From the IMG/VR virus record IMGVR_UViG_3300026483_000038, positions 1-24,527 of that record: a DNA stretch of 24,527 nucleotides; one strand, given 5' to 3'. Every line of letters begins with the position of its first letter. Within the stretch, counting starts at the first letter, position 1. Below, piece by piece: positions 870 to 24,118 of this stretch. The position numbers and the translations under genes were made by a program. Source of the DNA: a virus. The notes beneath the pieces are model-generated. The model ran no database searches. It saw nothing but the letters and a program-made list of their open reading frames with translations, and had not been told where the DNA came from.

Positions 870-1015
870 TGAACCGCGAATGGGACCGAGCCTATTGCAT
901 CGGGCAAATCCAAGCGATCGTCCGCGAGAGTAGCCACGCAACAGCAGGGGAAATGGTTGAGCAGGTGCGCAAGGCACTTGCTGACCTTAACAACAAACAG
1001 GAGACACAGAAATGA
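866..1015 (+). CDS. Small hypothetical protein (49 aa)
   Basis: A 49-codon ORF, probably all helix, containing MNREWDRAYCIGQIQAIVRE followed by TAGEMVEQVRKALADLNNK. Its ATG overlaps the upstream stop (ATGA at 866-869) and its own stop overlaps the ERF start (ATGA at 1012-1015), so it fills the gap exactly and keeps the coupled chain of the operon intact. Four-base overlaps at both ends are strong support for a real gene. I recognise no family. A second ATG follows immediately at 869. Confidence 0.7.
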   Translation: MMNREWDRAYCIGQIQAIVRESSHATAGEMVEQVRKALADLNNKQETQK

Positions 1016-1626
1016 CACAGCACAAAAACGTATACACCGCACTAGCTTCGGCGCAGTCTGAGATGGGGCCTGTGGTCAAAGGGACGGTGAACCCCCACTT
1101 TCGCAGCAAATACGCCGACTTGGCGGACGTGATGCAGGTCGCACTACCAGCCCTGAACCAAAACGGGGTTTCGGTTTGGAGCAGCATCGTACCCATAGAA
1201 GGCACCAACATGATGCGCACCACTCTGAGCCACGGCGAGAGTGATACGCACATCTTTTGCGACGTGCCGCTTATCGTGTCCAAAAATGACATGCAGGGCC
1301 TTAAATCTGCCACAACTTACGCAAAACGCGTGGGCGTAGAAAGCCTTTGCGGGATAGCCGCTGAAGATGACGACGGCAACGCAGCATCAAAAGCTGCACC
1401 GAAGCGCGAAGCGCCCAAGCCGCCCGAGGTTGACCCGCAGGCAATCAAGCAAGCCACAGAATATCTCGCGCAGGCTGACAGCTTGGATGACCTGAAAGAC
1501 CGCTGGTCAAACTTGCCCAAGCCTACAGCCGCGCACGCTGATGTCGTCGCAGCTAAGAACGCAGCAAAAAAGAACCTGACCATGCCGGACAATTCCGACA
1601 TCGGTGATGACCAAATTCCATACTAG
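1012..1626 (+). CDS. erf: ERF-family single-strand annealing protein
   Basis: A 204-residue ERF-superfamily recombinase. These proteins form rings on single-stranded DNA and anneal complementary strands in phage recombination and genome circularisation. The ERF core is at about residues 1-125: VYTALASAQSEMGPVVKGTVNPHFRSKYADLADV near the N-terminus, the glycine- and serine-rich middle (NGVSVWSSI), and DMQGLKSATTYAKRVGVESLCGIAAEDDDGN, the typical end of the domain. The rest (about 130-204) is an Ala/Pro/Lys-rich linker and a short acidic C-terminal tail ending DIGDDQIPY, a layout that in other annealing proteins contacts SSB. It sits in a coupled operon with other recombination genes. Confidence 0.92.
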   Translation: MTQHKNVYTALASAQSEMGPVVKGTVNPHFRSKYADLADVMQVALPALNQNGVSVWSSIVPIEGTNMMRTTLSHGESDTHIFCDVPLIVSKNDMQGLKSATTYAKRVGVESLCGIAAEDDDGNAASKAAPKREAPKPPEVDPQAIKQATEYLAQADSLDDLKDRWSNLPKPTAAHADVVAAKNAAKKNLTMPDNSDIGDDQIPY

Positions 1627-1637
1627 GAGAGAGCAAA

Positions 1638-2318
1638 ATGAGCAACATCGGACACAACAATCCGCCTGACCCAATCGACGTGGCACTTGCGCCCTACGCT
1701 GATGTCATCGAGGAAGCAGGCAACTGGCTTGACGGGGAGCCAGTGCAGTACGAGTACCAGCTAAAGGCCACGGATGCTCTGCTAAAATCTATAAAGTCCG
1801 CGATCAAGGACGTTAAAAACGCTCGCGACGATGCTACCAAGCCGCTGCATGAGGCATGGAAAGCAGAAGTTGCACGGTGGAAGCCGACCCAAGATGACCT
1901 TGACCGCGTAGCCAAAGGCATCGTCGCAGCGCAAGACCCATTCAAACGCCACCTTGCCGCGCAAAAGGAGGCTGAAAAGCGTGCAGCATGGGAGGCCGCT
2001 GAGAAGGCCAAGCGAGAGGCGATGGAGGCCGCACGCGCCGCTCAGGCGTCAGATATCCAAGCGCAGCGAGATGCCGCTGAGAAGGCCGCTATGGCGCAGC
2101 AGGCGGCGCAGGAAGCCAGCGCCAAGCAAAAAGACACGGTGAAAGGAATGCGCACGGTTCATCGCTATGAAATTCAGGACCACCGCGCAGCACTGCATTG
2201 GATCGCGCAGAACGACCGGGACGCAATGACCGCCTTTATTGAAGCGTATATCGACAAGCATCACAAAGGAACAGAGATTGAAGGTGTGAAACGCTGGACG
2301 GAAAAGGAAGCCTTCTGA
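1638..2318 (+). CDS. Coiled-coil phage protein, ERF-associated
   Basis: A 226-residue protein with a globular N-terminus, a long highly charged Ala/Glu/Lys/Gln-rich segment at about residues 105-170 that should form a continuous helix or coiled coil, and a conserved-looking C-terminal segment (VHRYEIQDHRAALHWIAQNDRDAMTAFIEAYID). Genes of this composition are common directly after erf in phages of alphaproteobacteria, and a role as an accessory to annealing or as an SSB/helicase partner is plausible but unproven. An AGGAGAG ribosome-binding site precedes the ATG. Its stop overlaps the next start (TGATG). Confidence 0.75.
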   Translation: MSNIGHNNPPDPIDVALAPYADVIEEAGNWLDGEPVQYEYQLKATDALLKSIKSAIKDVKNARDDATKPLHEAWKAEVARWKPTQDDLDRVAKGIVAAQDPFKRHLAAQKEAEKRAAWEAAEKAKREAMEAARAAQASDIQAQRDAAEKAAMAQQAAQEASAKQKDTVKGMRTVHRYEIQDHRAALHWIAQNDRDAMTAFIEAYIDKHHKGTEIEGVKRWTEKEAF

Positions 2319-5077: not shown

Positions 5078-5401
5078 TCACGCAATATCTCGGATAATTT
5101 CGACCCGCACATATCCGTCATTCGGGAATGTCTCGATTGTGCCATCAACATATGTGACTTCAAATTCAGCTTGGAATGAGCCGATTGTGTCGGTGTCTAG
5201 CGCGTCCCAATCGTATTGAACAGTTCCAGCAGCGGGGGTTACGATAGATGCCGAAGCGTCAACCTTTGTGATGCTAGAACTGATTGCACTCATATGAAAG
5301 CGAACAGAAGCGCCAAGAAGGTTGATTGCATTTCCAGATGCATCCTCGAGCGTAGCCAGCATCGAAGGGCTTGTGTCGTTTTGCTTGATGTAAAAAACCA
5401 T
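5078..5401 (-). CDS. BppU-like baseplate/fibre N-terminal domain protein
   Basis: A 107-residue protein resembling the N-terminal domain of the BppU family (upper baseplate proteins of lactococcal phages), an Ig-like beta fold: MVFYIKQNDTSPSMLATLEDASGNAINLLGASVRFHM, then TPAAGTVQYDWDALDTDTIGSFQAEFEVTYVDGTIETFPNDGYVRVEI. The domain normally attaches a receptor-binding protein to the tail tip; here it stands alone. The start at 5401 overlaps the stop of the repeat protein (TAATG), which decides it over the upstream in-frame ATG at 5437. Confidence 0.75.
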   Translation of the reverse strand: MVFYIKQNDTSPSMLATLEDASGNAINLLGASVRFHMSAISSSITKVDASASIVTPAAGTVQYDWDALDTDTIGSFQAEFEVTYVDGTIETFPNDGYVRVEIIRDIA

Positions 5402-6477
5402 TATGCCGCCTCGTTTGCTTGCTGCGTCACAATACACGCATTTGGCCCAATCTTCACTAGGGCGACGTTATTTGAAGGATCAGAAATGCTGATCGACCTT
5501 CTAGCGCTTCCATTGACATATGCTGGCCCAAACACAGGCGCACCTGTCACAATGCTGTCTGCGCTGAGGATTACCGTGACATCCATAACAGATGGCTGAA
5601 TTACAGGTGCGCCAGCCAAAACATTATCGGCCTGCAACTCGTGTTCTTGCTCGATGGTAGAGGCGTCAACAATGGGCGCGGCTGTCGTGATGTCATCGGC
5701 GCTCAAAACATGGACAACAATCGCTGTGGGGCTTCCAACAACGGGCGGCTGGGTGGTGATGTTAGCCGCTGTCAGAACTTCCACCTGCGCAATGACAGAT
5801 GCAGAAATGACAGGCGCGCCGCTTGCGATACTCACTGGCGCAAGGTCATGCTCTTGCTCAATCGTCGGTTGTCCGACCCTTGGGAAGTCAGCCGTTATCG
5901 GGTCAGCGTTTAGCGTTTCACGCTCTGACATTGTAATCGCAGGAACAACAGCGTTGCCCGTCGCAATGTTGTCGCCGTTTAGATTTTCATCTTGCTCGAT
6001 TGTGGCTGTCGCAATGACGGGTGCGCCCGACAAAATCGGATCAGCCGCAAAGGTCTCGTCCTCTGACATTGTGATTGCGGGGACAACTGGTTGACCTGTA
6101 ATAATTGCCACTGGTGAGAGTTCATGCTCTTGCAGTAGGTCAGAGGCTTGTACTGTAGGCTGACCAGTAGTGGTTGGGTCAGCAGAGAAAGTCTCTTCTT
6201 CAGAAGCACTGATAGCTGGCACTACAGGTTGGCCGGTTGTAATGCTGTTTGCCGGTAGGATGTGTGTCCGAACAAGCGTTGACAACGGAACGACTGGTAA
6301 CCCTGTCGTCAAGCCATCGGCTGTAAGGCCGTGTTCCTGAGCTACAGTAGAACTATCAACAACAGCTTGACCCGTGACAATGCCATCAGCATTTATGGGG
6401 TAGACGATAACCGCCCCATCATCAGCCAGAGGCGCAGAGGCTAAAGGCGCAGAGGCTAGAGGCGAAAATCCAAGCAT
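5401..6477 (-). CDS. 23-residue-repeat tail or fibre protein
   Basis: A 358-residue protein almost entirely made of tandem repeats. The first 30 residues include a small direct repeat (SAPLASAPLA). From residue 31 to 306 there are twelve repeats of exactly 23 residues, with a consensus like D-x-I-x-T-G-x-P-V-V-x-x-x-T-x-x-x-x-x-x-L-x-A, and a partial thirteenth followed by a non-repetitive C-terminus (GSARRSISISDPSNNVALVKIGPNACIV). This suggests a regular beta structure forming a rod or fibre. The gene lies among tail-fibre genes and is coupled to the BppU-like gene, so a structural or adsorption role is likely but no family is certain. Confidence 0.75.
   Translation of the reverse strand: MLGFSPLASAPLASAPLADDGAVIVYPINADGIVTGQAVVDSSTVAQEHGLTADGLTTGLPVVPLSTLVRTHILPANSITTGQPVVPAISASEEETFSADPTTTGQPTVQASDLLQEHELSPVAIITGQPVVPAITMSEDETFAADPILSGAPVIATATIEQDENLNGDNIATGNAVVPAITMSERETLNADPITADFPRVGQPTIEQEHDLAPVSIASGAPVISASVIAQVEVLTAANITTQPPVVGSPTAIVVHVLSADDITTAAPIVDASTIEQEHELQADNVLAGAPVIQPSVMDVTVILSADSIVTGAPVFGPAYVNGSARRSISISDPSNNVALVKIGPNACIVTQQANEAA
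5560..6387 (-). repeat. Twelve tandem 69-bp coding repeats
   Basis: This stretch encodes twelve consecutive 23-residue repeats (69 bp each) with no insertions or deletions. Neighbouring copies have diverged; alternating copies look more alike (for example the PAITMSE-type and the TIEQEH-type units), as expected of an old two-unit duplication. Confidence 0.8.
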
Positions 6478-22429: not shown

Positions 22430-22486
22430 CACGAGCGTCCTCGATGTTTGCAGCAAATTAGCACATCAGGCGCTCATGGTAAAGGC

Positions 22487-22497
22487 AGGGCGGTCTT
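22487..22497 (+). repeat. Inverted copy of the array 9-mer
   Basis: The plus strand here reads GGCGGTCTT from 22489, the array punctuation element in the opposite orientation. On the minus-strand transcript it becomes AAGACCGCC, perfectly complementary to the element that opens module B2 (23198-23190), and its 3' neighbour CGCCCTGCC is complementary to GGCAGGGCG units in both arrays. Confidence 0.55.
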
Positions 22498-22501
22498 AGC
22501 C

Positions 22502-22619
22502 GCGCCCACCTCGCCATGGCTTACCTAAACACAACACGCAACGACACATCTCGACCGCCAAGCCTCGCCCTGCCGCGCCCAGCCTTACCTTGCCCTGCCT
22601 CGACCGCCTTTCCTTGACC
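22502..22619 (-). repeat. Pentamer array A (GGYNN units with 9-mer punctuation)
   Basis: Non-coding tract directly after the 161-residue gene. On the minus strand the G of each unit recurs every five bases. A 9-mer GGCGGTCGA begins at 22608 and again at 22559, and a degenerate copy GGTGGGCGC at 22510, all exactly 49 bases apart. The first interval holds eight clear pentamers (GGCAG, GGCAA, GGTAA, GGCTG, GGCGC, GGCAG, GGCGA, GGCTT); the second holds eight degraded ones that keep G at position 1 in seven of eight. Bases 22620-22630 and 22430-22501 around it hold only spacers, the portal leader and an inverted 9-mer (22487-22497). Confidence 0.85.
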
Positions 22620-22630
22620 AGTGCGCCCGC

Positions 22631-23116
22631 TTATGCGGACTGCACCACACCGCGCTTGGGCGCAGCGATTTCCTCTAAAGCAAACAGTTCGTTTTCATCA
22701 AACGCGCCTGCATAACGATCTAGCCAAGACCTTAAAGCAACCGCGCCTTGCCTGCGTAATTCAGCCATTGCCTCCGGATCGTCTGGATCAAAACGCGTAT
22801 ATCCGCCGCCATGCTTTCGACTTGCCATTGGCGACACATAAGCCGGATATTCCCGCTCAGTGATTTGAACCACATTCGCTTCCGTGGTTTCGACCTTGGC
22901 TTTGATCCGAAGCCCGCTTGCCATTTTGCGTGCAAGATGGATGCGGTGCTGACGTGCCGCTTCGGCATCATCAATGCCAAAGAACCAATCATAAGCTTCG
23001 TGATCCGGCTGGCCTTCCAGCCAGTCAATGAACTCAGACGCGACAAACATATTGCGCCCGCTCTCCGACAAATACCCATCAATGATGCGCTGCCGATCTT
23101 TACTTGTAAAAGCCAT
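22631..23116 (-). CDS. Conserved hypothetical protein between two pentamer arrays
   Basis: A 161-residue protein with no recognised function: RQRIIDGYLSESGRNMFVASEFIDWLEGQPDHEAYDWFFGIDDAEAARQHRIHLARKMASGLRIKAKVE, then ITEREYPAYVSPMASRKHGGGYTRFDPDDPEAMAELRRQGAVALRSWLDRY. The N-terminal part is helical; a Gly-rich loop KHGGGYTRF and a second helical part follow. It looks conserved and soluble, with no membrane or signal segment. GAAAGGG lies before the ATG. It sits exactly between arrays A and B and downstream of the RAMP-like gene in one transcription direction, suggesting it belongs to the same module. Confidence 0.78.
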   Translation of the reverse strand: MAFTSKDRQRIIDGYLSESGRNMFVASEFIDWLEGQPDHEAYDWFFGIDDAEAARQHRIHLARKMASGLRIKAKVETTEANVVQITEREYPAYVSPMASRKHGGGYTRFDPDDPEAMAELRRQGAVALRSWLDRYAGAFDENELFALEEIAAPKRGVVQSA

Positions 23117-23141
23117 TTGTCTTCCCTTTCTGTTTTGCAGT

Positions 23142-23272
23142 GGACCGCCATGCCAAGCCCGAACTCACCCGACCAAAACAGACCTCACCAAGACCGCCTT
23201 TCCTCGACCGCCAAGCCGCGCCCAGCCGCGCCCTGCCTTACCGTGACAAGCCTCGACCGCCTTACCTTGACC
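23142..23272 (-). repeat. Pentamer array B (GGYNN units with 9-mer punctuation)
   Basis: Non-coding tract between the RAMP-like gene and the 161-residue gene. On the minus strand, 9-mers of the form GGCGGTCNN begin at 23261, 23212, 23198 and (partial) 23149. Spacings are 49, 14 and 49 bases: nine plus eight pentamers, nine plus one pentamer, nine plus eight pentamers. Module B1 units are GGCTT, GTCAC, GGTAA, GGCAG, GGCGC, GGCTG, GGCGC, GGCTT; B2 units are GGTGA, GGTCT, GTTTT, GGTCG, GGTGA, GTTCG, GGCTT, GGCAT. The first 70 bases match array A without gaps at 62 of 70 positions. Confidence 0.87.
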
Positions 23273-23276
23273 GCGT

Positions 23277-23296
23277 GGGGCGACCTAAGCCGCCCC
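23277..23296 (-). promoter_or_regulatory. GC hairpin at head of array B
   Basis: Eight bases after the stop of the RAMP-like gene, an 8-bp stem GGGGCGGC / GTCGCCCC (one G-U pair) closes a TTAG loop. No U-tract follows, so it is not a standard terminator. It immediately precedes the pentamer array and could mark the 5' end of an array RNA or block exonucleases. Confidence 0.55.
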
Positions 23297-23304
23297 CGCC
23301 AATA

Positions 23305-24063
23305 TCATGCCGCGCGCTTTTCGCGCTCCTCTTGCAGCATTTCCATAAGTTCTTCGGTTTCGTCATCGTAGCATTCTGGGTTATCCAGCGCCGCCTGCTG
23401 CACATCGCGCGCCTCTGCGGTGATTTCATCCCAGTATTCTTGGAAGTCACCAAGATCATCGCCTGCGACCGAAAATGTGCCAAACGATCCGCGCCCCTTT
23501 TCTTGCCGAAAGTCACCGATCCCAACAATCGCGCCCGCGTTTTGCAGCAAAGAAACAATGCTGTGCGCGCTCAGTGTCGGCGTAACATAGGCAATATCAA
23601 CCTCTGCCACCCAGCGAGGCAAAAAAGCCCGCGTGCGAACGTCCGGCGTTTTGTTCATATCGGCCGATCGCACAACGTCCATTTTGAGATAAGGCTTGCC
23701 CCAGACTTGAATTTTCATTTCTGGCAAAAAAATCAAACGCTGCACGCTTGTCTTTGTGACGCCAGGCGTTTCCAAAGCCGCCGTTGCCATTGCGCCCTTT
23801 ACGCCCGGCGCTGGGAAGCAAAGCAGGGTTTCGCCGTCGCGCTTACGATAGGCGCTGTCACGGTATTCTTGCTCTGGATCGTGCTTAATTTCTTTGCGCT
23901 CGGCTGCGGTTTTTTTGCCGCCGCCGATCAGCAAAGACCGCTTGGCCTTGGCACTCATTGCGTTGAAGTAAAGCGGCGTCGATCCAATCATGCGCAGCTT
24001 AACGCGTCCCTGCTTGAGCGCGTCAATGTGAAGTGTTCCAGCTTCTGCTTTTTTGATAGCCAT
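23305..24063 (-). CDS. RAMP-like (Cas7/Cas5-type) protein
   Basis: A 252-residue protein of unknown function with three features typical of RAMP-superfamily RNA-binding proteins. The first is an opening strand and polar loop (KLRMIGSTPLYFNAMSAKAKRSLL, residues 22-45), like the I-x-x-x-S-P-L of RAMPs. The second is FPAPGVKGAMATAA at 83-96, parallel to the P-G-s-s-L-K-G-a-l-R motif. The third is a glycine-rich loop near the end of the fold, GIGDFRQEKGRGSFGTF at 181-197. A charged helical tail follows. I start at MAIKK (24063) with AAGGA upstream; an ATG at 24105 would add 14 residues. No CRISPR genes are visible. It is followed at once by a hairpin and pentamer array B. Confidence 0.6.
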   Translation of the reverse strand: MAIKKAEAGTLHIDALKQGRVKLRMIGSTPLYFNAMSAKAKRSLLIGGGKKTAAERKEIKHDPEQEYRDSAYRKRDGETLLCFPAPGVKGAMATAALETPGVTKTSVQRLIFLPEMKIQVWGKPYLKMDVVRSADMNKTPDVRTRAFLPRWVAEVDIAYVTPTLSAHSIVSLLQNAGAIVGIGDFRQEKGRGSFGTFSVAGDDLGDFQEYWDEITAEARDVQQAALDNPECYDDETEELMEMLQEEREKRAA

Positions 24064-24118
24064 GTTGTGCATCCTTGTCTTGCGGACGCACGTCGCCTGT
24101 CGCATTATGCAATCAGGT

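Follow-up and report, generated by a model that had tools for sequence, protein, structure and literature searches.

Two gaps between genes on the minus strand of a virus fragment (IMG/VR record IMGVR_UViG_3300026483_000038; the whole stretch analysed, 24,527 nucleotides, is referred to as the window) are filled with G-initial pentamers, and this raises the question of what such arrays are for in a phage genome. On the minus strand the order is terL C-terminus, vipr, array 1, a gene for a 161-aa protein, array 2, portal, protease and capsid. The portal, protease and capsid genes are of HK97 type, as in a tailed phage, and a tRNA search of the window found none. Elsewhere in the window, the gene of an Erf-like single-strand annealing protein precedes one of the exonuclease family (PHROG 10477; 1012-2318, plus strand), and a 358-aa open reading frame of short degenerate repeats (~A..ITTG.PVV..ST..QEH.L) lies amid the structural genes (5401-6477, minus strand). 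The features of the locus are as follows.

23305..24063, minus strand: vipr, predicted RAMP/Cas7-like guide-RNA-binding protein of 252 aa, counted from an inner ATG (the longer open reading frame starts at 24105)
23273..23299, minus strand: GC-rich hairpin between the vipr stop codon and array 1 (-23.1 kcal/mol, z -4.1 against shuffles)
23143..23275, minus strand: array 1, putative vrRNA array, with GGCGGTC marks at 23261, 23212, 23198 and 23149, the last closing the array (23149-23143)
23213..23261, minus strand: guide module g1, NN string GA-TT-AC-AA-AG-GC-TG-GC-TT
23150..23198, minus strand: guide module g2, NN string TT-GA-CT-TT-CG-GA-CG-TT-AT
22631..23116, minus strand: gene of the 161-aa companion, candidate vipr-accessory protein (vap) by its association with vipr loci
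22504..22622, minus strand: array 2, with GGCGGTC marks at 22608 and 22559; a degenerate starter at 22622, then g3, then a decayed module
From 22608, minus strand: guide module g3, NN string GA-AG-AA-AA-TG-GC-AG-GA-TT
22483..22512, minus strand: hairpin that closes array 2 and lies upstream of the portal gene (-18.7 kcal/mol, z -1.9)

Both gaps follow one grammar, GGCGGTC-NN-(GGY-NN)n. Array 1 consists of a degenerate 14-nt starter at 23275, a module of nine dinucleotides at 23261, a 14-nt short unit at 23212 and a second module of nine dinucleotides at 23198. Each of the two arrays opens with a 14-base doublet whose first punctuation is degenerate (CGCGGTCAAGGTAA at 23275, ACTGGTCAAGGAAA at 22622), and the 14-base unit also recurs in relatives. 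The sequence-only reading had reported four intervals of 49 bases and one of 14. Three of the former are exact (23261-23212, 23198-23149 and 22608-22559, each 9+8x5, with a G at the start of 24/24 pentamers), and the 14-base spacing is found at 23212-23198. The fourth (22559-22510), already flagged there as degenerate, holds one T-start pentamer and ends in GGTGGGC at 22510, so that the module at 22559 is a decayed one. The periodicity itself, which had been proposed as a check at lags 5 and 49, was measured as GG-GG autocorrelation and compared with that of 1,000 dinucleotide shuffles. Array 1 scored 13 at lag 49 (5.0 in shuffles, none of 1,000 as high) and 14 at lag 5 (6.8 in shuffles, 3 of 1,000 as high); array 2 scored 11 at lag 5 (3.3 in shuffles) and 9 at lag 49 (2.5 in shuffles), with no shuffle out of 1,000 as high at either lag. 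The pentamer arrays are thus real, and on both strands of the rest of the window no period-5 GG score came near the arrays' 9 (elsewhere at most 5).

The protein encoded next to array 1 points to the kind of system involved. A profile built from 43 homologues matches PDB entry 36pp, 'SUSP1 Vipr protein' (E 1.3e-4), across the G-loop NAG..GIGDFRQEKGRG. An AlphaFold2 model (pLDDT 85.9) has its best fold matches in Csm3, type VII Cas7 and Cas7-11, with E values from 1.8e-5. By profile comparison, the RAMP-like protein of the window is a homologue of the solved SUSP1 Vipr. It belongs to PHROG 4652, where its function is unannotated. Relatives in bacterial records are mostly alphaproteobacterial (Pararhodobacter, Aureimonas, Bradyrhizobium, Microvirga; also Rhodobacterales), and distant homologues come from phages of Gordonia and Mycobacterium and from Pseudomonas phage LESphi2. 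A blastn search of the window's arrays against phages gave weak matches only, among them mycobacteriophage Donkeykong (NC_051648.1, 37101-37164) and its relatives, near a distant vipr homologue that is annotated as hypothetical protein (locus L301); this suggests, at the level of sequence similarity, that mycobacteriophages may carry VIPR arrays.

VIPR (Viral Interference Programmable Repeat) is described in the preprint PMC13142463 as a newly reported RNA-guided DNA-recognition code that is said to predate CRISPR and to comprise seven types, with SUSP1 / P. fulva as the type II reference. Vipr is presented there as a RAMP ancestor, and its vrRNAs, made of alternating GGY and NN, bind DNA through NNxNNxNN targets (PMC13142463). 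We consider that the present locus is a VIPR, arranged as vipr, vrRNA array, accessory gene and vrRNA array between terL and portal, and put the probability of this reading at about 0.92.

The companion gene is less easily placed. Its product falls in no Pfam family, NCBIfam and PADLOC gave nothing significant, and its model, with helices around a two-strand beta hairpin, matches no fold in PDB; of 39 homologues, 12 match PHROG 15946, function unannotated. Its link to the arrays is nevertheless close. Relatives with the flanking genes and no tract would have spoken against the sequence-only reading, and in 23/23 loci first found via the 161-aa protein an array of the same grammar lies upstream of its gene, mostly unrelated in sequence. 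A scan of IMG/VR by grammar only, blind to any protein, returned 113 stretches, and most of the loci reached in this way adjoin a Vipr homologue. In a set of 138 loci (23 obtained via the 161-aa protein, a few from other records, the rest via the DNA pattern), 121 have a Vipr homologue and 112 a homologue of the 161-aa protein; this Vipr family as a whole is encoded in 566 viral stretches. An alternative layout was seen in L093, L110, L117 and L049, where the 161-aa homologue comes directly after vipr or overlaps it, and the array is downstream of both.

Module lengths were counted in 70 loci fetched via the Vipr protein alone, so that the census carries no bias from a DNA pattern. Phased modules were found in 60 of the 70, and the in-phase lengths were 44 (63 cases), 54 (52), 59 (43), 49 (32), 39 (29) and 64 (9); 65 more spacings were out of phase. 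The exact 49 bases that had been taken for a length-counted rule are therefore one case of a more general one: module length is 9+5k, where k lies in most cases between 6 and 10. Up to 30 GGCGGTC marks are borne by one array (L031), and 603 distinct modules were decoded in relatives. Among the first 485 modules, G occupies pentamer position 1 in 97% and position 2 in 78%, and position 3 is C or T in 94%. The interior dinucleotides of the relatives' modules hold 0.06 bit out of a possible 4, and the first and last about 0.5 bit.

The decoding rule was examined with 401 modules that have nine or more dinucleotides, searched against 2.8 Mb with permuted guides as decoys. When one base was skipped between dinucleotides there were 2 perfect and 4 one-mismatch matches, against 0 for the permuted decoys; skips of 0, 2 and 4 gave no excess over decoys in the same search, and a skip of 3 was left unscored, since every array then matches itself. 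Only the 1-nt-skip reading yields targets beyond decoys, a result that rests on about six of 401 guides. The clearest case is a 10-dinucleotide guide of a relative, L075, which has 23 exact matches in all of IMG/VR, every one in terL. Every match is in frame and places the skipped base on the third (wobble) position of a codon; together they represent 17 distinct 29-mers, variable at every skip position, which all encode one TerL motif, AILDEVGQVRGQQDAFIEAIET or near variants. No vipr was seen in any of the 23 target contigs, which are fragments, and the targeted terL was not found in guide-bearing loci in the DNA available, again fragments. Guides of L046, L036 and L177 match the adjoining terL site (IEAIETAQGAH), and the L036 matches include, with one mismatch, L237, a relative almost identical to the window. 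A 12-dinucleotide guide of L029 matches a capsid gene on the opposite strand with one mismatch. The terL and capsid identity of representative target genes was confirmed by Pfam. In L109, the module at offset 8302 on the reverse strand carries an 8-dinucleotide guide that is an exact match to the G-loop region of the L053 vipr and has 2 mismatches to its own vipr; VIPR-on-VIPR targeting is possible, and the 16 bases are too few to exclude chance.

These results bear on two other explanations. A Cas7-like protein adjoins the arrays, as would be expected if they were a degenerate CRISPR array with very short spacers. However, the arrays lack the direct repeats of CRISPR-Cas, which are about 21-37 nt long and separated by unique contiguous spacers; what recurs in them is a 3-nt GGY at steps of 5 nt, together with a 7-nt mark. 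The contiguous reading gave no target excess, and PADLOC recognised neither of the two flanking genes as encoding a CRISPR protein. We give this explanation practically no credence. The position between terminase and portal, and the resemblance of phased G-rich repeats to binding arrays, would suit a cis-acting DNA site, either for packaging (cos/pac) or as replication iterons, that is, repeated protein-binding motifs. Such a site is highly improbable, as the NN pairs are near random, modules turn over among phages with otherwise identical genes, and guides find terL targets under one decoding rule only; moreover, plasmids, among them the Sulfitobacter phage-plasmid NZ_CP136687 and the Paracoccus plasmid NZ_CP040759, carry vipr and the 161-aa companion outside any terL-portal interval.

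Several points count against the VIPR reading: no target was found for the window's three intact guides, one of its modules is decayed, the code test depends on a handful of guides, no conserved structured tail like that of the SUSP1 vrRNA was found, and the arrays fold no better than shuffled sequence. Searched as 18-base patterns, g1, g2 and g3 had 0 exact 1-nt-skip targets in IMG/VR. Missing targets are to be expected, because IMG/VR samples few phages, and the absence of any match to three 18-base patterns also indicates a low chance background. Allowing up to one mismatch in 397 genomes from the family of a Pararhodobacter genome gave 2, 4 and 0 candidate targets for g1, g2 and g3; these were rejected as chance matches because they are near control levels and lie in unrelated genes. 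Few modules, one of them decayed, and intact guides lacking targets are also what a decayed, non-functional VIPR remnant would show. This we regard as unlikely. The vipr and 161-aa genes are intact, and nucleotide-identical copies occur in other contigs that diverge by 1-3% in terL and portal; in L007, where both genes are likewise identical to the window's, another module, of 59 nt, stands in place of g1. Identical genes in diverged lineages, together with a module that differs between two of these lineages, suggest that the VIPR has remained in use.

The hairpins at the ends of the arrays raise the question whether the RNA acts on its own transcript. Comparable hairpins of about 8 bp follow vipr in many relatives, with a different stem sequence and often with GGTCAAGG next, and a consensus from a rough alignment retains only 4 core pairs, 2 of them with double changes; the post-vipr hairpin is possibly an array leader. 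The hairpin of array 2 is less distinctive, as 10 of 200 shuffles fold equally well. Flanking stable hairpins, and the fact that array 1 stops immediately ahead of the 161-aa gene's ribosome-binding site, could be explained by a cis-regulatory leader RNA for translation of this gene and the portal, having no targets in trans. Within the arrays, however, folding does not go beyond composition (z -0.4 and -0.7 against shuffled sequence), a search of Rfam gave no match, the places where conservation would be expected of a riboregulator are hypervariable in sequence, and matches to the guides of relatives lie in phage genes. A leader RNA of this kind is very unlikely.

Composite guides formed by pairing across GGCGGTC did no better than decoys at gaps of 0-12 over 379 junctions, so the mark appears to separate guides and behaves as punctuation between them. 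It is conceivable, and we put it forward with some doubt, that GGCGGTC is a new, explicit form of punctuation giving a self-delimiting, non-contiguous array with freely variable guide lengths, joined to an accessory protein of a new family and to guides against conserved terminase and capsid motifs of competing phages.

Under the VIPR reading, the arrays would be transcribed from the minus strand. The GGY triplets would be scaffold positions gripped by Vipr subunits, as described for SUSP1 (PMC13142463), and the NN pairs would jointly specify a DNA target as NNxNNxNN, one base being skipped, as demonstrated for relatives, with GGCGGTC as the probable boundary at which one guide ends and the next starts. 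Binding and repression of genes have been demonstrated for other VIPRs, and such systems seem to serve viruses in competition with rival viruses (PMC13142463); by analogy, the Vipr complex would most likely bind and repress genes of competing phages. The targets identified for this clade, in relatives of the window, lie in the terL and major capsid genes of related phages, and since the skipped base falls at the codon wobble position, most synonymous changes would not permit escape. The sequence-only reading is thus partly supported. Its view of the tracts as code-like, neither CRISPR nor coding, read from the minus strand and linked to both flanking genes is upheld; a guide array in which GGY positions are the scaffold and NN positions give specificity is a better description than a scaffold, and the claim that no standard feature type applies gives way to a match with published vrRNA arrays.

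The VIPR mechanism itself is already published. The clade, the punctuation, the 9+5k spacing, the flanking hairpins, the accessory protein with no recognised fold and the targeting of terL and capsid are possibly new. For the 1-nt skip rule this is an independent computational confirmation, obtained in a clade distant from the E. coli and Pseudomonas examples already published. Furthermore, the locus, with its relatives in the hundreds, predicts exact targets in other phages, within terL and capsid genes, and the whole is a large natural set of multi-guide arrays for studying processing, punctuation and guide turnover.

Compared with known systems, the modelled Vipr fold is shared with the Cas7 family of Class 1 CRISPR (Csm3, type VII Cas7, Cas7-11), whereas here there are no CRISPR repeats, no other cas genes were seen alongside, and the guide is read non-contiguously. 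Differences from the published VIPRs are also evident. Vipr, which is described with an RRM core, a G-loop and a thumb (PMC13142463), has 252 aa here and 202 aa in the SUSP1 chain in PDB. The same source gives 9-16 repeats per vrRNA; taking a module as one vrRNA, the intact modules of the window have 9 dinucleotides each, and those of relatives mostly 7-12, reaching lower. In the SUSP1 and P. fulva clades the vrRNA has an invariable structured 3' tail (PMC13142463); here hairpins flank the arrays, and no conserved structured tail of the SUSP1 type was found, each module having no tail apart from GGCGGTC. Modules here are bounded by this mark at a spacing of 9+5k, and the 'staggered arrays with overlapping vrRNAs' mentioned for fig. 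S18 of PMC13142463 may be of the type seen here. The vap gene is predicted to interact with DNA (PMC13142463), whereas the accessory protein of the window is one with no known fold, and the targets are terL and capsid genes as opposed to satellites or lysogeny regulators. What is shared with VIPR is a RAMP-like Vipr with G-loop homology, phage-encoded arrays of GGY/NN pentamers with hypervariable NN, a candidate accessory gene and, as seen here in relatives, the 1-nt skip aligned with codon wobble and targets in other phages.
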